A stretch of 64,000 nucleotides of DNA, taken from NCBI GenBank assembly GCA_947496235.1, contig CANMCE010000001.1:310001-374000 (forward strand), written 5' to 3'. Positions 9,624 through 56,091 of the stretch are shown in pieces. The notes below the pieces were generated by a model. It was given only the letters and a program-made list of their open reading frames with translations. It was not told where the DNA came from and searched no databases. Source of the DNA: an uncultured Glaciecola sp. (GTDB lineage Bacteria > Pseudomonadota > Gammaproteobacteria > Enterobacterales > Alteromonadaceae). Every line of letters starts with the position of its first letter. Positions within the stretch are counted from its first letter, which is position 1. The translations under genes were made by a program, and so were the position numbers.

Positions 9624-11135
9624 TCAAACATCCAACAATAGTCTTGTTGGATCTTCTAACATTTCTTTAACAGTTACCAAGAAGCCTACTGATTCTTTAC
9701 CATCAATAATTCTATGGTCATAAGACAAGGCTAAGTACATCATAGGTAAAATTTCAATTTTGCCATCAACTACCATTGGGCGGTCTTGAATTTTATGCAT
9801 ACCTAAAATTGCACTTTGAGGCGGGTTAATAATAGGTGTAGACATTAATGAACCAAACACACCACCATTAGTGATAGTGAAGTTTCCGCCCATTAGATCG
9901 TCCATCGATAATTTACCATCTCTACCTTTAATTGCTAAGTCTTTGATACCCTTTTCAATTCCTGCCATGCCCAAAGCATCACAATCTTTTAAAATAGGAG
10001 TAACCAAGCCGCGAGGGGTAGAAACAGCAATCGAAATGTCAAAATAGTTGTGGTAGCAAATGTCATCACCATCAATAGATGCATTTACTTCAGGGAAACG
10101 TTTTAACGCTTCCGTTACCGCTTTTACATAAAACGACATAAAGCCTAAACGAATACCATGACGCTTTTCAAAGCTGTCTTGATATTGCTTACGTAAATCC
10201 ATAATTGGCTTCATATTGACTTCATTAAAGGTAGTCAACATAGCAGTTGAATTTTTGGCTTCTAATAAACGATTAGCAATTGTCTTACGTAGACGCGTCA
10301 TTGGAACACGTTTTTCAGTGCGATTCGCTAATACAGGTGTAGCATCATCTTTAGATTCTGCAGCCGCTGGTGCCTTGCTGGAAGAGCCAGATTTTAAGTA
10401 TTTTTCTACATCTTCTTTTGTAATACGACCACCTTTGCCAGTGCCTTTTACATTACTTGGGTCAATGTCTTTTTCAGCAAGTAAACGACGTACCGATGGA
10501 GACAATGCATCTGAATCACTATCATCGCTACTTTCAGCTGGTGTAGATGCACTTGCTGAAGCACCTGCACTAGCACCTGCCACAAATTTTGCAATGACTT
10601 CTTCAGCCGTTACCGTTGCGCCTTCTTCTGCGAGGATTTCACTAACGCTACCATCCGCTGGAGCAACAACCTCAAGTACTACTTTATCGGTTTCTATGTC
10701 GACAAGATTTTGGTCTCTAGAAACTTGCTCGCCCACTTGAACATGCCATGTAGACACTGTTGCATCTGCAACAGATTCAGGTAACACTGGTACTTTAACT
10801 TCGGTTTCTTCACCACCGGAAGATGCGCCTTCGCTAGAAGATTTAGTTTCGTCAGAAGCTTCTTTTGCATCACTTGCGCTATCTTTGCTTGCAGCGCCAG
10901 ATTCTTCAACTTTACCGATAACTTGTTCTCCAAGGACGGTTTCGCCTTCTTGGAATAAAATTTCGCCTACAACACCATCGGCAGGTGATACTACTTCTAG
11001 TACTACCTTATCGGTTTCAATATCTACTAAGTTTTGGTCGCGAGTCACCTTATCACCGGCTTTAACATGCCAAGTGGCAATAGTCGCATCCGCGACGGAT
11101 TCAGGTAATACTGGAACTTTTATCTCATGTGCCAT
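9624..11135 (-). CDS. sucB: 2-oxoglutarate dehydrogenase E2 (dihydrolipoyl succinyltransferase), two lipoyl domains
   Basis: E2 core of the 2-oxoglutarate dehydrogenase complex; it transfers the succinyl group from lipoate to CoA. At 503 residues it is about 100 longer than E. coli SucB because it carries two tandem lipoyl domains: residues 3-78 with lipoyl Lys43 and about 112-186 with Lys151, both in [10 protein letters not shown]. Ser/Glu- and Ala/Ser-rich linkers follow, then an E3-binding domain near 210-246 ([15 protein letters not shown]) and the catalytic domain from about 275 with HRIIDG (His474, Asp478). It lies 8 bp downstream of sucA. Confidence 0.96.
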
Positions 11136-11143
11136 TGTTTTTC

Positions 11144-13969
11144 CTATTTAATCGTGAGTGCGTCTTCGACCAACGCTTTTTGTTGTTGACTGTGAACTGC
11201 CGCATAACCTACTGCTGGAGAAGCAGAAGCCTTACGTCCGGCATAAGTTAAACTTGCACCTTCTGGAATCGCATCCTTAAAGTGGTGCTGACTGCAATAC
11301 CAAGCGCCTTGGTTTTGTGGCTCTTCTTGACACCAAACCCAGTCTTTAACGTGACTGTAAGGCGCTATTATTTCTTTAATTTCTTCTTGTGGGAACGGAT
11401 ACAATTGTTCGATTCTGATAATCGCAACATTGCTTTGTTCTCTCTTACGTCTTTCTTCTAGTAAGTCATAATAGACTTTACCTGAACACATCACCACACG
11501 TTCAACTGATTTACTTTCCAGTTCATCAATTTCAGCAATAACGTTGTGGAATTTACCTTCAGCTAATTCTTCAAGACTGCTAACCGCTAAAGGATGACGC
11601 AATAACGACTTAGGCGACATAACGATCAAAGGCTTACGCATTGGTCTTACCATTTGTCGTCTAATCATATTGTATACCTGAGCTGGCGTTGAAGGTACGC
11701 AAACCTGCCAGTTATGATCAGCACAAAGCTGTAAGAAACGTTCTAAGCGAGCCGAGCTATGCTCAGGGCCTTGACCTTCGTAACCGTGAGGAAGCAATAC
11801 TGTTAGACCGCATAACCGTCCCCACTTTGCTTCACCAGAAGACAAGAATTGGTCAAATACTACTTGTGCACCATTGGCAAAGTCCCCAAATTGCGCTTCC
11901 CAGATAGTAAGTGCCGTTGGTTCAGCGGTAGCAAAACCATATTCAAATGCCATTACCGCTTCTTCTGACAATACTGAATCGTAAATTTCAATAGTGCCTT
12001 GGTCATCAGCGATATTTTGAAGTGGGATGAAAGTTGATGCATCATCTTGACTATGTAGCACTGCATGACGATGGAAGAAAGTTCCTCGACCTGAATCCTG
12101 CCCAGTGATACGGATATCATTTTTTTCCGCAAGCAGAGTTGCATAGGCTAGGTTTTCAGCCATCCCCCAATCAAGCAAACGCTCGCCAGATAACATGGCT
12201 TTGCGATCGTTATAGAGTTTGTTTACTCGTGATTGAAGTCTAAAGCCGTCTGGTACATTAGTTATAGCTTCGCCCAGTTCTTTAAGACGCTCAACTGACA
12301 AACTCGCATCGTATTCTGTATCCCAGTCATGACCAATGAAAGGACTCCAATCAACTGAATGCTCAGTCATTGGGCGCCATTCTTCAACAACGCAAGCGCC
12401 GTGATCTAAGGCTGCTCTATATTCCTCAAGCATCTTATCAATTTCATGCTTGTCTATGGTTCCTTCAGCGACTAACTGATCAGCATAGATTTCGCGTGGT
12501 ACTGGATGTTTTTTAATTTTTTGGTACATCAACGGCTGAGTAGCATTTGGCTCATCAGCTTCGTTGTGTCCATGACGGCGATAACAAACTAAATCTATTA
12601 CCACGTCTTTCTTGAATTTGTTTCGGTAATCTAAGGCGAGTTTAGTCACAAACATAACAGCCTCAGGATCGTCAGAATTCACGTGGAAAATTGGCGCCTG
12701 AACCATTTTGGCAATATCAGTACAGTATTGAGTAGAACGAGTGTCTTCAACCTTTGATGTGGTAAAACCGACTTGGTTGTTAATCACTATACGAACTGTA
12801 CCGCCTACAGAGAATCCTCGGGTTTGTGACATGTTGAAAGTTTCTTGCACAACACCTTGACCAGCAATTGCTGAATCCCCATGAATAGTAATAGGTAACA
12901 CCACACTACCATCCATTGATTCTCTACGTGTAAGTCTTGCTCTCACCGACCCCATTACCACAGGATTTACAATTTCCAAGTGTGAAGGGTTGAATGCTAG
13001 TGCCAAGTGAACATTACCACCTGGTGTAGCAAAGTCAGAAGAATAACCTGCATGATACTTAACGTCACCAGCGCCTAATGAATCATCGTGCTTACCAGCA
13101 AACTCATCAAACAAAACGGAAGGGTTTTTACCCATTACGTTTACAAGTACGTTTAGACGCCCGCGGTGAGCCATACCTACAACAACTTCTTTAGCCCCTT
13201 GAGTACCCGCTTCTCGAATCAAGGTCTTCAACATTGGGATTAGCGCATCACCACCTTCTAGTGAAAAACGCTTAGCACCTGTAAACTTAGAACCTAGGTA
13301 TTTTTCCATACCATCAGCGGCAATAAGCCCTTTAAGGATGCGAACTTTTTCATCTCGGTCAACCAATGGCTTTGATTCAACCGACTCAATCCGTTGTTGT
13401 AACCAACGTTTTTGCTCTGTGTCAGTAATGTGCATGTATTCTGCACCGATTGAACCACAGTAAGTTCTGTTTAAAGATTTAAAAAGTTCACCTAGTGGAA
13501 GCTTTTCTGCATCTACTGCGTATGAGCCTAAGTTGAACACAGTATCGAAATCTGCTTCGCTAAGGTTGTGATGAGAAAGTTCAAGATCTCTAACACGCTC
13601 TTGTTGCCACAATCCTAGTGGGTCCAAGTTGGCATGCTGATGGCCTCTAAATCTATAGGCATTTATTAACTGAAGGACTTTGACTTGTCTATCGTCAGAA
13701 GGACTTTCGCTCGATGATGCTGCACTGCTACCCGCACGGGATAAGGGGCCTAGTGCAGCCATCTTTCGGAAGTCTTCGCGAATGTCCGAATGTTTAGTTT
13801 CAACTGAAACGCCATCTACCTTAGGTAATCCTTCAAACACTGTACGCCAGTTCTCAGGTACATTTTGAGGATTATCAAGATAGGCTTCATACAATTCTTC
13901 TACGTAGGCGGCGTTGCCTCCAGCCATATGAGAAGATTCCCACCACGCTTTCATCACGCTATTTTGCAT
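11144..13969 (-). CDS. sucA: 2-oxoglutarate dehydrogenase E1 component
   Basis: Thiamine-diphosphate-dependent decarboxylating subunit of the 2-oxoglutarate dehydrogenase complex. The 941 residues compare with 933 in E. coli. It begins with the E1o N-terminal segment ([22 protein letters not shown]), which binds E2 in this family, and contains [27 protein letters not shown] and [12 protein letters not shown]. It heads sucABCD; the sdhB terminator lies upstream, so the 110 bp before it probably contains its own promoter. Confidence 0.98.
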
Positions 13970-19616: not shown

Positions 19617-21074
19617 TCAGGACTGAGAGATTAAAGCAGACAACTCTTCGGTTTTCTTTTGCATCAAAGGGATATCTTGTTTGGCCTCAACGTTAAGTCT
19701 AATCACAGGTTCTGTGTTCGATTTACGAAGATTAAAACGCCAGTTCTCAAATTCAAACCCAACGCCATCAGTAGTATCAATTTTTACGGCATCTGCGGCG
19801 TAAATATCTCGGATTTTCTTTATCGTATTACCAGCATCTTGTACGGTGAAGTTTATTTCCCCAGAACTTGGGTATTTTTCAATACGTTCTTGCACCAAGG
19901 AAGAAAGAGGCTTGCCTGTGCTCGAAATTAACTCAGCCACTAACAGCCAAGGGATCATACCAGAATCACAATAAGCAAAATCTCTGAAATAGTGATGAGC
20001 GCTCATTTCTCCGCCATAAATAGCATCTTCTTTACGCATTCTTTCTTTGATAAATGCATGACCAGTTTTGCATCGCACTGGCTTACCGCCAGCTTCATTG
20101 ATGATATCTTCGGTATTCCAAAATACACGAGGATCGTAGATGATTCTTGCGCCTTTTTCTTTCTGCAAAAAGGCTTGGGCGAGAAGTCCTACTATGTAAT
20201 AACCCTCAATAAACTCGCCATTCTCATCAAATAAGAAACAACGGTCAAAATCGCCATCCCATGCAATTCCCATGTCTGCATTTTCTGACTTTACTACGCT
20301 AGATGTTGCGCCACGATTTTTAGGTAATAAAGGATTGGGAATACCGTTTGGAAAATCCCCATCTGGTTTATGATGGACTTTTACAAAGGTCACGGGCACT
20401 TTTTGATGCTCAAAAAATAACTCTAATGCGTCTATGATATGCCCAGCAACGCCATTTCCAGCATTTACCACTAGTTTTAATGGCTTAATCGAGCGTAAGT
20501 CTACATATTCGGCTAAATGCAATATGTAGTCATTGATGCAGCTTTTCTTTTCGTATTTGCCAGTGCTAAGTAACATGGTTGTTAGCACACTCGCCTGCCC
20601 AGATAAAAATTCTTGCTCGTTGACAAGACGATTATCAGCATAATAAGACAAACGTTTTTCTACTTCTTCATCTGAAAAAGCTTCAGCAGCACTTTTTATT
20701 GCGTTAAGTCCACTGTCACCACTGATTGGCACTGAGCCGGCCTTGACCAGCTTCATACCGTTATAATCAATAGGATTATGACTTGCAGTTACTTCAATGC
20801 CGCCATCGACACCTAAATGTTTAGTAGCAAAATAAATTTCTTCAGTGCCTGAAACACCTAAATCAATAACCTCACTGCCGCCATCTATTAGCCCAGCGGC
20901 TAGTGCTAGCTTAAGCGGATTTGAAGTGTGTCTTGCATCAGCGCCCACTACCACTTTTTTCGATTGTAAGTGAGTTGCGAACGCCCGCCCTACTCTATAA
21001 GCAACATTCTCAGTAAGTTGAGAAATTAATTGACCTCGAATGTCGTAGGCCTTAAAACATGTGATTGTCGTCAT
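19617..21074 (-). CDS. cpsG: Phosphomannomutase (CpsG/ManB family)
   Basis: Interconverts mannose 6-phosphate and mannose 1-phosphate, supplying GDP-mannose for surface polysaccharides; related enzymes also use glucose phosphates. The phosphoserine loop is TASHNP (Ser98), the metal loop DGDFDR (273-278), the sugar loop GGEMSAHHYF, and the phosphate-binding loop RKSNTEPV. The C-terminal two thirds follow E. coli CpsG closely. At 485 residues it is about 29 longer than the E. coli enzyme, mostly from an extra segment near residues 145-178. It is a single gene, not in a polysaccharide cluster. Confidence 0.93.
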   Translation of the reverse strand: MTTITCFKAYDIRGQLISQLTENVAYRVGRAFATHLQSKKVVVGADARHTSNPLKLALAAGLIDGGSEVIDLGVSGTEEIYFATKHLGVDGGIEVTASHNPIDYNGMKLVKAGSVPISGDSGLNAIKSAAEAFSDEEVEKRLSYYADNRLVNEQEFLSGQASVLTTMLLSTGKYEKKSCINDYILHLAEYVDLRSIKPLKLVVNAGNGVAGHIIDALELFFEHQKVPVTFVKVHHKPDGDFPNGIPNPLLPKNRGATSSVVKSENADMGIAWDGDFDRCFLFDENGEFIEGYYIVGLLAQAFLQKEKGARIIYDPRVFWNTEDIINEAGGKPVRCKTGHAFIKERMRKEDAIYGGEMSAHHYFRDFAYCDSGMIPWLLVAELISSTGKPLSSLVQERIEKYPSSGEINFTVQDAGNTIKKIRDIYAADAVKIDTTDGVGFEFENWRFNLRKSNTEPVIRLNVEAKQDIPLMQKKTEELSALISQS

Positions 21075-21162
21075 TATTTAATAAAAAGTAACTTATTCAA
21101 ACGGTTATCATAAGATACTTAGTATAAGTCTTCAATCACACTTTTATGACACAGATAAATTT

Positions 21163-22122
21163 TTACAGATGATGCCTATTGTGCGGTACCTTAAGGTCCA
21201 TAATTGGTCCCATAGGCACCACTTGCGTTGGGTTAATCATATGATGGCTATAATAATAATGGCGTTTTATATGCTCGAAATTAACAGTGTCTGACACCCC
21301 TTCTATTTGATAAAGCTCGCGCAAATAGCCGCTAAGGGAAGAATAATCTTCGATTCTTCTTAAGTTACATTTGAAATGGCCTACGTATACAGGATCAAAC
21401 CTAACCAGGGTCGTAAACAAGCGCCAGTCGGCCTCCGTGAGACTATCACCTACTAAGTATCTTTGTGTCGACAGTCTTTTATCCAAATAATCTAAAGCAT
21501 CAAATAGTGCTTTTACGGCTTCTTCGTATGCTTCTTGGGTTGTTGCAAATCCAGCTTTATAAACGCCGTTATTAACATTGTCATACACATACTGATTAAT
21601 TTCATCTATCTCGGTTGCTTGTTCAGCAGGATAATAATCAAGTTGATTTCCAGTGATTTCATTGAATGCTGAATTGAACATTCGAATAATGTCCGCAGAT
21701 TCATTACTCACGATTGATTCAGTTTTTTTGTCCCAAAGAACTGGCACAGTAACTCTTGACGTAATATCAGATTTAACTTTGGTATACAGTTGATGCAAAT
21801 AATCAAAATTAAACAAATGATCTTTAGTAGCATCAGGAAAACCACCAAACTCCCAACCATTCTCTAACATATCAGGGCTCACTACAGATACCCCAATGTG
21901 ATCTTCCAATCCCTTTAATTTGCGAAAAATTAACGTTCGATGAGCCCAAGGGCAAGCTAGAGAAACATACAGGTGATAACGGCCAGACTCCGGTGAAAAT
22001 TTTGCATCTGCCTCGGATGAAACATGATCTCTAAACATAGATGCTTGACGTTTAAACTTGCCATCGCTTTCTTTGGTGTCATACCATTTATCTTGCCACT
22101 TACCTTCTACTAGTAGTCCCAT
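21163..22122 (-). CDS. yqjG: Glutathionyl-hydroquinone reductase
   Basis: Reduces glutathionyl-hydroquinones to hydroquinones, a Xi-class glutathione transferase activity. The catalytic Cys57 lies in SLACPWAHR. The protein also has the family motifs VPVLWDKKTESIVSNESADI and NNGVYKAGFATTQEAYEEA, and the C-terminal helical domain contains GDSLTEADWRLFTTLVRFD. Its 319 residues are typical. It stands alone between cpsG and the divergent tcdA. Confidence 0.93.
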   Translation of the reverse strand: MGLLVEGKWQDKWYDTKESDGKFKRQASMFRDHVSSEADAKFSPESGRYHLYVSLACPWAHRTLIFRKLKGLEDHIGVSVVSPDMLENGWEFGGFPDATKDHLFNFDYLHQLYTKVKSDITSRVTVPVLWDKKTESIVSNESADIIRMFNSAFNEITGNQLDYYPAEQATEIDEINQYVYDNVNNGVYKAGFATTQEAYEEAVKALFDALDYLDKRLSTQRYLVGDSLTEADWRLFTTLVRFDPVYVGHFKCNLRRIEDYSSLSGYLRELYQIEGVSDTVNFEHIKRHYYYSHHMINPTQVVPMGPIMDLKVPHNRHHL

Positions 22123-53224: not shown

Positions 53225-55156
53225 TTAATTAGTAGTAGTGCTGGTATTTCCATCATCTGCTGGCTTGTCTTGCTTGCCAACGTCGATAGTAGCACCACCA
53301 GAAGGTTTATTATCGTCTGACTTGTTGTCTCTATCCCAATCTGCAGGAGGACGAACGTCTCTGCGTTCCATCAAATCGTCGATTTGTTTTGCATCTATAG
53401 TTTCATACTTCATCAACGCATCTTTCATCGTATGCAAAATATCCATGTTATCTTGCAAAATCTGATAAGCACGCTGATAGTTACGATCTATTATGTCTTT
53501 TATTTCTTTATCTATTGTACGAGCAGTTTCATCGGACACGTTGGCAGATTTGCTCATCGAACGTCCTAAGAAAACCTCACCTTCTTCTTCTGCGTACAAT
53601 TGCGGACCTAATTTGGCACTTAAGCCCCATTGTGTCACCATTTTCTTGGCTATATCAGTGGCCCGTTCGATATCATTTGAAGCACCTGTAGTCACTGAAT
53701 CTTCACCGTAAATGATTTCTTCGGCAATTCGGCCACCGAACAAACTTGATATCATGCTTTCAAGATGGCGTTTTGTATAACTAACACGATCTTGCTCAGG
53801 CAAATACATGGTCACACCTAATGCTCGTCCACGCGGGATAATTGACACCTTATATACTGGGTCATGTTCAGGCACCATTCTACCAACGATCGCGTGGCCA
53901 GCTTCGTGATACGCAGTCATGGCTTTTTCTTCCTCAGACATCACCATGGAACGACGTTCAGTTCCCATCATAATTTTGTCTTTGGCTTTTTCAAACTCTT
54001 CCATTGACACTAAGCGGCGATTTGAACGAGCAGCAAACAAGGCAGCTTCATTCACCAAGTTGGCTAAATCAGCACCAGAAAATCCAGGCGTACCTCGCGC
54101 TATTACAGATGCTACAACGTCATCCGCAATAGGTACTTTTCGCATGTGAACTTTCAGAATTTGTTCTCTTCCGCGAATATCAGGTAAGCCTACCACTACT
54201 TGACGGTCAAAACGTCCTGGACGTAGAAGTGCAGGATCTAGTACATCAGGACGGTTAGTCGCCGCAATTACTATAATACCTTCGTGACCTTCAAAGCCGT
54301 CCATTTCAACTAGCATCTGGTTCAAGGTTTGTTCACGTTCATCATGACCACCACCTAAACCTGCGCCACGTTGACGACCTACAGCATCAATCTCATCAAT
54401 AAAGATGATACAGGGCGAAGATTTTTTGGCTTGTTCAAACATGTCACGAACACGAGATGCACCAACACCAACGAACATTTCTACAAAATCTGAACCAGAA
54501 ATTGTAAAGAAAGGCACTTTTGCCTCACCAGCAATTGCTTTAGCAAGCAAGGTTTTACCTGTTCCTGGTGGCCCTACCATCAATACACCCTTAGGTATTT
54601 TTCCGCCTAACTTTTGGAACTTGGTTGGATCGCGTAAAAAGTCGACTAATTCCGTCACTTCTTCTTTTGCTTCATCGCAGCCTGCAACATCTGCAAAGGT
54701 GGTTTTAATTTGGTCTTCACTAAGTAAACGGGCTTTACTTTTACCAAATGACATAGCGCCTCTACCACCGCCGCCTTGCATTTGACGCATAAAGAATATC
54801 CAAACACCAATCAAAAGAAGCATAGGGAACCAAGAAATAAATATCTGAGCGAACCAGTTTGGTTGCTCTGGAGGTGTCCCGTATTGAATAACGTTATTCG
54901 TTTTTAAATCATCAATAAGTTTAGGATCTAACATCGGCATTGTTGTGGTAAACACAGTGCCGTTTTTCATTTGGCCTTTTATTTCGCGTCCTTCTATGTG
55001 CACCTGTGAAACATCACCACGCTGCACTTCGTTTAAAAACGTAGTGTAGTCCTTAGAAGCCCCCGCTGGCTCATTGCTTGTGAAGTTTTTGAATACCATC
55101 ATCAACACAACAGCAATAAACAGCCATAAAATAAGATTTTTTGCCATGTCGCTCAA
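53225..55156 (-). CDS. ftsH: ATP-dependent zinc metalloprotease FtsH
   Basis: Membrane-anchored AAA+ protease that degrades misfolded membrane proteins and LpxC. The 643 residues have two N-terminal membrane helices (about 7-23 and 104-123), Walker A GPPGTGKT (195-202), [14 protein letters not shown], and the zinc site HEAGH (417-421). The listed start is TTG 55156 ([10 protein letters not shown]), matching the N-terminus known from Shewanella FtsH and lying nine bases after AGGGG; ATG 55147 would drop three residues. Its usual upstream partner rlmE is a pseudogene here. Confidence 0.97.
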
Positions 55157-55222: not shown

Positions 55223-55707
55223 CTACACTTTACAGCCTTTAGCCACCAAATACGCCTCTCTAGAGTATGTTCATAGAGAATCCAGTGTTCTGGTCTTTAC
55301 ACTAGTAAATGCGGACTTTATTTCTCGAAAGAACTCATAAATCCCTTCACCATGGAAACCTTTTATTACAAAATTTCCATTTGGTTTAAGTACTGATCAG
55401 TACTTAAACCAATGCTAACTCACATTAACCATAAACATTGCCTGATGCACCTATTAATCGTCACTCGTAACACTTGCTATCTCAGACAATATAATAACTA
55501 CGTTGTTCCCGCCAATTTTGTCCAATAACCTGTTTAAAACAATTTCGTTACCAAAGTTACCTTGCGAAAAATCGAGGCCTGACAAGAAGTCGTCAGACAA
55601 CCTTTCATACACTACCTTACGCAATAACTGTACCACTACCGCTCACTTTTTCAGTGCAACATTGGTATTAACCATCACTTGTCACTGGCAAAATAATTCT
55701 TTTTCGT
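55223..55707 (-). pseudogene. rlmE: Decayed rlmE (23S rRNA Um2552 2'-O-methyltransferase)
   Basis: On the minus strand, one reading frame from about 55636 to 55223 retains clear RlmE blocks: FLSGLDFSQGNFGNEIVL (E. coli IVGVDFLQGDFRDELVM), NGNFVIKGFHGEGIYEFFRE ([20 protein letters not shown]) and SREAYLVAKGCKV before TAG (SREVYIVATGRKP). The frame is broken by TAA 55456-55454, TAG 55453-55451, TAG 55417-55415, TGA 55399-55397 and TGA 55273-55271. The catalytic Asp of MSDMAP has become Glu in LSEIAS; the later catalytic Lys and Glu remain. A possible N-terminal scrap, KKNYFASDK-stop-WL (55704-55669), is in another frame, and about 40 codons, including most of the SAM-binding motif region, are missing or unrecognisable. 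The position between yhbY and ftsH is that of intact rlmE in relatives. Confidence 0.9.
55381..55412. repeat. Perfect 32-bp palindrome inside the rlmE remnant
   Basis: The 32 bases are identical to their reverse complement, with centre TGATCA and outer ends TTGG/CCAA. On the minus strand the second half encodes the RlmE-like VLKPN, while the first half is its inverted copy and replaces the codons expected after an ELAL-like segment. It has no following T-run, so it is not a typical terminator; an operator role for ftsH (start 225 bp downstream) is possible. Confidence 0.9.
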
Positions 55708-55794
55708 TATTCGCTTAATTCGCTAGATGCATTGTGCATAAAGTATAGGTAGAATAACGTTTTTCAAGTAACAACAACATAAAATAGTGAAATA

Positions 55795-56091
55795 ATGCAT
55801 TTAACTAATAAACAAAAACAATATTTAAAAGGACTCGCCCATAATCTAAAGCCAGTGGTACAGCTTGGTGGTAACGGTTTGACAGAAGGTGTACTCGCAG
55901 AAATAGAAAATGCATTGTCACATCACGAGCTGATAAAAGTTAAAATTCCCACTGACGATCGAGAAGAAAAAGCCTTGATCATAGATGCAATAGTAGCGGA
56001 AACCAGTAGTGAAAAAATTCAAACTATCGGCCATATATTGGTTATATACAAACCAAGTGAAGATCAGAAGATAAGCCTACCTAAAGCCTAG
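55795..56091 (+). CDS. yhbY: Ribosome assembly RNA-binding protein YhbY
   Basis: A CRM-domain RNA-binding protein that associates with pre-50S particles. The 98 residues start MHLTNKQKQYLKGLAHNLKPVVQLGGNGLTEGV (in parts), with the GxxG-type loop GGNGL and the KVKIP segment. It is divergent from ftsH and the rlmE remnant, as in most gammaproteobacteria, where yhbY and rlmE are divergent neighbours. Confidence 0.95.
   Translation: MHLTNKQKQYLKGLAHNLKPVVQLGGNGLTEGVLAEIENALSHHELIKVKIPTDDREEKALIIDAIVAETSSEKIQTIGHILVIYKPSEDQKISLPKA

Follow-up and report, generated by a model that had tools for sequence, protein, structure and literature searches.

The window analysed here is a stretch of 64,000 nucleotides from an uncultured Glaciecola sp., in which two intact genes, ftsH (53225-55156, minus strand) and yhbY (55795-56091, plus strand), enclose the remains of an rlmE gene read on the minus strand; yhbY, divergent, is the upstream flank of the relic and ftsH the downstream one. 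The FtsJ profile PF01728 matched positions 55235-55582 of the window (G000:C1:365235-365582, minus strand) with 40.1 bits over profile positions 65-180, with two TGA, two TAG and one TAA stop codons inside the match. By alignment with the intact rlmE of a congener (genome G005), the main block of the relic (55226-55600, minus strand) corresponds to residues 85-209 of that protein (50% identity over 127 aa, E 2.4e-31); it is interrupted by five stops, and its SDMAP site reads SEIAS, the Asp being changed to Glu. A search of the 638-base spacer alone added a block in another frame (55620-55664, minus strand; residues 67-81, E 0.010) and, in the third frame and with one stop, a possible and weak one (55669-55710, minus strand; residues 1-14, E 0.094). 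The block ends and the spacer length place a deletion junction at 55665-55668 (minus strand), where about 52 codons of the G005 gene (residues 15-66, SAM motif included) are absent. The frame is thus broken by the stops of the main block, by two frame changes and by the loss of these codons; the yhbY-ftsH spacer measures 638 bp in this genome vs. 796 bp in G005.

The window spacer is a genuine decayed native rlmE, with a similarity above chance: none of 1460 dinucleotide shuffles of 73 yhbY-ftsH spacers matched on the plus strand at E<0.1 (best 0.16), and none of the 73 real spacers matched RlmE on the minus strand at E<0.01 (best 0.35). The initial annotation, which had placed an rlmE pseudogene at 55223-55707 between yhbY and ftsH, with at least five in-frame stops, an Asp-to-Glu change at the catalytic site and most of the SAM-binding N-terminal part gone, is borne out on each of these points, both by the FtsJ profile and by the alignment with the intact gene of a close relative.

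The same annotation had proposed a search of the whole genome with an RlmE profile. Run with PF01728, this search returned an intact RlmE of 206 aa on another contig (G000:C21:48783-49400; 194 bits, cut-off 24.1), so an rlmE is still present in this genome. Hereafter, we call RlmE1 the copy found between yhbY and ftsH and RlmE2 the copy of the C21 type found elsewhere. Two further FtsJ matches of this genome (contigs C6 and C16) lie in longer frames and are, by their length and sequence, presumably RlmM and RsmB. RlmE2 scores 308.4 bits with the NCBIfam RlmE equivalog NF008390, above the cut-off of 269; with TIGR00438 (rrmJ), it remains under the cut-off of 300.15 (262.8 bits), a limit that fails to separate the two types because the native RlmE1 of G005 misses it as well (282.5 bits). 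Among solved structures, RlmE2 matches E. coli FtsJ best (1eiz, 231 bits), the SAM motif DLGSAPGGW is kept, and K35, D121, K161 and E196 align with what we take to be the K-D-K-E catalytic tetrad of RlmE. Judging from 13.5 nonsynonymous vs. 123.5 synonymous differences with Alteromonas oceani, RlmE2 is under purifying selection. We infer that RlmE2 makes Um2552 of the 23S A-loop, as does E. coli RlmE (RrmJ/FtsJ), with which it shares the FtsJ domain, the equivalog score and the catalytic residues; it differs from that enzyme by lying outside the yhbY-ftsH interval, by belonging to a clade of its own and in that its activity is predicted. With an intact predicted RlmE on C21, the idea that this lineage lives without Um2552 finds no support. 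A comparison of the residues differing between RlmE1 and RlmE2 yielded nothing that clearly hints at function.

In a tree of 84 RlmE sequences, from which loci L090 and L091 (see below) were left out, all 47 RlmE2 rows form one clade (support 100/98), which also holds Pseudomonas and Marinobacter sequences, while the alteromonad RlmE1 form a separate clade (100/100). The RlmE2 clade adjoins the RlmE1 of G757, a genome of another family (98/85), and its nearest RlmE is thus non-alteromonad; it is from this separate clade that we conclude that a foreign copy, lodged at a different locus, in all likelihood took the place of RlmE1. Among the best 80 loci, RlmE2 is found in Marinobacter, Pseudomonas, Cellvibrio, Pseudohongiella, Gilvimarinus and many Alteromonadaceae, as well as in two Vibrio, one Photobacterium and two Oceanospirillum, whose sequences are nested among alteromonad RlmE2 (with a support of just 83/82 for Oceanospirillum). 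One has to keep in mind that many inner branches of this tree are weak and that the FtsH tree described below allows an early gain with later losses, which leaves the direction and number of RlmE2 transfers uncertain.

Within this clade, the RlmE2 of our genome groups with those of A. oceani, A. lipolytica, A. confluentis and a MAG (5 rows, support 100/94), and the resemblance extends to its neighbours. Identities to A. oceani vs. Agaribacter marinus, a member of the genus (G001), are 94 vs. 85% for RlmE2, 91 vs. 85% for a FAD enzyme, 88 vs. 80% for ylqF, 76 vs. 58% for an RlmP-like methyltransferase and 94 vs. 80% for fdxA; yhbY follows the opposite trend (78 vs. 88%), and the FtsH tree puts our genome with the genus members G001 and G006. 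Since the block genes are nearer A. oceani while yhbY and FtsH are nearer the genus, an A. oceani-like line is the probable source of the stretch running from ylqF through the FAD enzyme. What counts against a simple block transfer is that A. confluentis, whose RlmE is close too, reaches just 77% identity in ylqF. With synonymous sites saturated and a GC content of 0.42 vs. 0.48, A. oceani cannot be the direct donor, and the same saturation, together with a GC content that fits the host, indicates that the arrival of the block was not recent. On C21, a gene for a 1116-aa protein, with a weak fibronectin III match alone, stands between ylqF and the RlmP-like gene (L005, 5436-8786); in A. oceani (L114), these two genes are adjacent, without it.

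A mobile carrier was also sought: the closest plasmid match to RlmE2 is 62% identical (Amphritea japonica) and the closest phage record 63%, neither being an RlmE2, and the RlmP-like gene had no match of at least 60% among plasmids. The Amphritea plasmid (NZ_AP025762.1, 94 kb) carries ftsH and rlmE, normally chromosomal housekeeping genes, at 10449-12948. The phage record, Pseudomonas phage Y6 (OQ572408.1), holds a full-length RlmE at 20726-21343; the record is without annotation and may be host DNA.

The most constant neighbour of rlmE2 is a SpoU methyltransferase gene, divergent from it and found within the available flank in 73 of the best 80 named RlmE2 loci; some of the other seven end early or have the FAD enzyme alone. 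In the genus and family, the RlmP-like neighbour is present in 40/40 RlmE2 loci tested, two of which are repeats. Its protein combines a SpoU domain (PF00588, 106.7 bits) with an MRM3-like substrate-binding domain (PF22435, 58.6 bits), and among solved structures B. subtilis RlmP matches it best, with 91.5 bits for the single sequence and 115.7 bits for a profile of 32 sequences. With this profile, MRM3 (77.9 bits) follows RlmP after two uncharacterised structures, ahead of RlmR (68.4), AviRb (47.9) and E. coli RlmB (33.9); the RlmB family TIGR00186 gave 69.6 bits, under its cut-off of 160.15. Fold separates these enzymes less than sequence does: in a search with a predicted model (pLDDT 89), RlmP came near the top, a close second level with 2i6d, and AviRb was equal in TM. 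According to PMC12123411 and PMC7379855, RlmP and MRM3 methylate G2553 or its equivalent, whereas RlmR, a SpoU enzyme of Thermus (PMC12123411), and RlmE methylate U2552; B. subtilis has Gm2553 and lacks Um2552, and G2553 is unmodified in E. coli. We thus predict that the neighbour is an RlmP/MRM3-like enzyme making Gm2553 of the A-loop. It resembles B. subtilis RlmP (YsgA) and mitochondrial MRM3 in its SpoU and MRM3-like domains and in its best solved match, and differs from RlmP in that the gene is here coupled to an rlmE.

We then turn to the distribution of the two types. In the genus, RlmE2 is present in 11 of 13 genomes, and two (G005 and G006) have RlmE1 alone, between yhbY and ftsH; the 13 include Agaribacter marinus (G001), Glaciecola pallidula (G003), Glaciecola sp. 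MH2013 (G009) and Glaciecola sp. XM2 (G010). The relic of the window is the best preserved among the 11 RlmE2 genomes, with about a quarter of the gene gone nevertheless; the suggestion that the decay is fairly recent thus stands in relative terms only, given this loss and the saturated synonymous sites of the intact copy. Across the family, an RlmE match was found in 388 of 395 genomes and RlmE2 in 61 of the 388, with identities of 77-100% (the next match being at 62%) and holders spanning 15 genera. One apparent case of a genome without RlmE, G031 (family f1, genus g20; 99% complete), was set aside: its yhbY match is absent too, which makes an assembly gap more likely than a loss of RlmE.

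Relics of RlmE1 between ftsH and yhbY (E<0.01) were found in 22 of 58 family RlmE2 genomes, 6/11 in the genus and 16/47 in the others, and in 19/58 at the stricter E<0.001; the 58 are the 61 holders minus G115, where yhbY gave no match, and the pair G170 and G188, which have a full-length, diverged RlmE1. No relic was seen at E<0.01 in the other 36 of the 58 genomes tested, so that the earlier presence of RlmE1 there rests on synteny. To call natural loss of this gene unusual is to overlook the chief finding: RlmE1 is commonly lost once RlmE2 is there. In an FtsH tree covering 105 genomes (60 with RlmE2, 45 with RlmE1; quick method), there are at least 10 changes of RlmE type, of which well supported branches force at least five, vs. 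33.6 changes with shuffled labels; these counts are a guide only, because FtsH adjoins RlmE1 and could move with it. The swap from RlmE1 to RlmE2 appears to be one that related bacteria have made repeatedly, in many cases.

The near-identical genomes G170 and G188 (Aliiglaciecola lipolytica D2R05) carry RlmE2 and a full-length RlmE1 frame (L090:1414-2019 and L091:1414-2019). This RlmE1 sits on a very long branch (0.68), has altered RSR and RKP..SR motifs with the four catalytic positions retained, and scores 245.4 with the RlmE equivalog, under the cut-off of 269. As it differs from the RlmE1 of G319 by about 130 nonsynonymous changes without a single stop, its sequence suggests a protein on which selection continues to act, and which may have taken on a new role.

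Outside the family, 24 genomes among those listed in a class search were considered: 23 carry RlmE2, and G590 has RlmE1 alone. A broken second RlmE was present in 11 of the 23, and in 11/11 cases it was confirmed inside the yhbY-ftsH spacer: Vibrio sp. 99-8-1, Photobacterium sanguinicancri, Oceanospirillum sanctuarii, Marinobacter pelagius, Marinobacter sp. SS21, Pseudomonas oleovorans, P. boanensis, P. luteola, P. resinovorans, G555 and G665. At least 18 of the 198 genomes in the family of G555 have more than one RlmE match; four were already covered (G555, P. resinovorans, P. boanensis and P. luteola), and we re-searched the other 14. Both types are full length and stop-free in their two places in five of these (G875, G908, G917, G922 and G927); relic pieces of RlmE1 lie between ftsH and yhbY in seven, G786 has one weak piece, and no RlmE1 relic was seen in G855. 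Among the five both-copy genomes, dN/dS is 0.04-0.10 for RlmE1 pairs and 0.03-0.22 for RlmE2 pairs, and dS is lower for RlmE2 than for RlmE1 in 9/10 pairs, which suggests that RlmE2 spread later than the split of the Pseudomonas-type host lines.

The reverse situation, a broken RlmE2 beside an intact RlmE1, was not seen in the genomes re-searched for having several matches, and no RlmE2 relic was found at the RlmE2 place of six RlmE1 genomes (best E 0.14). As these six may have lost rlmE2 cleanly, we do not claim that displacement is one-way.

Displacement of genes by foreign homologues is well known, and we consider it highly probable that the relic of the window was left in this way. A foreign RlmE2 would have been gained at G000:C21:48783-49400, where its block also comprises fdxA and the genes of a FAD enzyme and an RlmP-like SpoU methyltransferase; RlmE2 would have taken over Um2552 methylation of the 23S A-loop; and RlmE1, now redundant, would have decayed by deletion, frame shifts and stops. 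The observations behind this reading are the relic, the intact foreign copy in its own clade, the native RlmE1 of two congeners, the closeness of the block to A. oceani, the relics found elsewhere and the genomes with both copies intact; that RlmE1 died of redundancy is what we infer from them. As in other cases of xenologous gene displacement, the foreign homologue is intact, the native gene is dead in its ancestral place and close relatives keep the native gene intact. The RlmE case differs in being ectopic, in its recurrence across several families, where the relics are at many stages of decay, and in the linkage of the incoming rlmE2 to a second predicted A-loop methyltransferase.

A first alternative is that RlmE1 and RlmE2 coexisted from an early ancestor, each descendant having lost one of them at random without repeated transfer. 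RlmE2 does keep its neighbour in most of the best 80 loci, and the 10 changes on the FtsH tree could be one gain followed by losses. Moreover, when we searched 24 family genomes without RlmE2 (23 with RlmE1, and G031 with none), six, all of one genus (g24, Alteromonas), had a close RlmP-like gene (62-66%) without rlmE2. In G277, an RlmE1 genome, the order FAD enzyme, fdxA, RlmP-like gene, ylqF is kept with rlmE2 and any trace of it absent, and the fdxA-trmH junction is shared, so that rlmE2 may also be the copy lost. However, the close RlmP-like gene is absent from the other 18 of the 24 (one has a distant one, at 31%, and 17 weak or no matches), the RlmE2 of Vibrio, Photobacterium and, with less support, Oceanospirillum fall among alteromonad ones, and dS is the lower for RlmE2 in nearly all pairs from the both-copy genomes. 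Taken together, we find this alternative improbable, though not negligible. In G277, fdxA lies directly beside the RlmP-like gene (176 bp; L247, 996-2232), at an empty or emptied rlmE2 site.

Could RlmE2 act on another target, with U2552 either left without a methyl group or methylated by a different enzyme, for instance the adjacent SpoU protein? The neighbour belongs to the same superfamily as RlmR, the Um2552 enzyme of Thermus, and in five genomes both RlmE types are intact and under purifying selection; on the other side, RlmE2 scores above the RlmE equivalog cut-off and has its catalytic and SAM motifs in place, the neighbour is nearer RlmP than RlmR (115.7 vs. 68.4 bits), and the decay of RlmE1 where RlmE2 is present suggests a shared function. 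We hold this for quite unlikely. Still less credible is a duplication or move of the native rlmE within the genome with decay of the old copy and nothing foreign, one of the options (moved, replaced or dispensed with) initially envisaged: it would leave one intact RlmE and one relic, as seen, but the relic is 31% identical to the intact copy vs. 50% to the RlmE1 of G005, and the intact copy falls in the clade shared with Pseudomonas and Marinobacter, apart from alteromonad RlmE1 (100/100), which speaks for “replaced”. Finally, that C21 is a contaminant of an organism truly without RlmE is scarcely believable, for although its block genes are nearest A. oceani, its GC content (0.38-0.42 vs. 0.48 in A. 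oceani) and tetranucleotide correlation (0.81-0.85 with other contigs of the genome vs. 0.62-0.72 with A. oceani) are those of the host, the genome is listed as 100% complete and 0% contaminated with its sole ylqF match on C21, and RlmE2 is also found in 10 of the 12 other genomes of the genus.

If displacement by RlmE2 is the mechanism, why would it recur? We propose, tentatively and as a possibility we would not bet on, that the divergent RlmE2 and RlmP-like pair is an A-loop modification island moving between gammaproteobacteria and giving an A-loop with two methyl marks, like that of mitochondria; RlmE2 would be suited to the Gm2553 mark, so that the resident RlmE1 would repeatedly lose its use and die. 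The pair would parallel human mitochondrial MRM2/MRM3, one RlmE-type and one SpoU-type enzyme with predicted adjacent A-loop nucleotides as targets, the difference being that the bacterial genes are divergent on the chromosome and appear to move horizontally. Such marks can depend on each other, since lowering MRM2 in human mitochondria also lowers the MRM3 mark (PMC7379855). Against the island, the six Alteromonas genomes mentioned above carry both RlmE1 and the RlmP-like gene, which can therefore coexist.

This A-loop modification pattern is known from mitochondria; that rlmE2 is linked to an enzyme predicted to make Gm2553 is a concrete motive to look for it in bacteria, where the linkage predicts a doubly modified A-loop, and the predicted Um2552/Gm2553 gene pair is a new lead. 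The literature searched, of partial coverage, describes such a loop for no gammaproteobacterium and holds no account of RlmE displacement or of an RlmE-RlmP gene pair; the mechanism itself is familiar, but this literature does not describe it on such a scale, with stages that can still be read and a linked pair of A-loop genes. The exchange of RlmE is of interest because its loss is costly: according to PMC11194073, of all single losses of rRNA modification enzymes in E. coli, this one alone slows growth notably (2-4-fold). Here, many lineages appear to have exchanged one enzyme for a distant homologue, and since the stages can still be read (both copies intact, fresh frame shifts, heavy decay, empty spacer), the exchangeability of an rRNA-modifying enzyme becomes directly testable. 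At one relic locus (L307, G044:C18:140900-149500), 4.7 kb separate yhbY from the rlmE relic, a distance usually of a few hundred bases, pointing to an insertion beside the dead gene.
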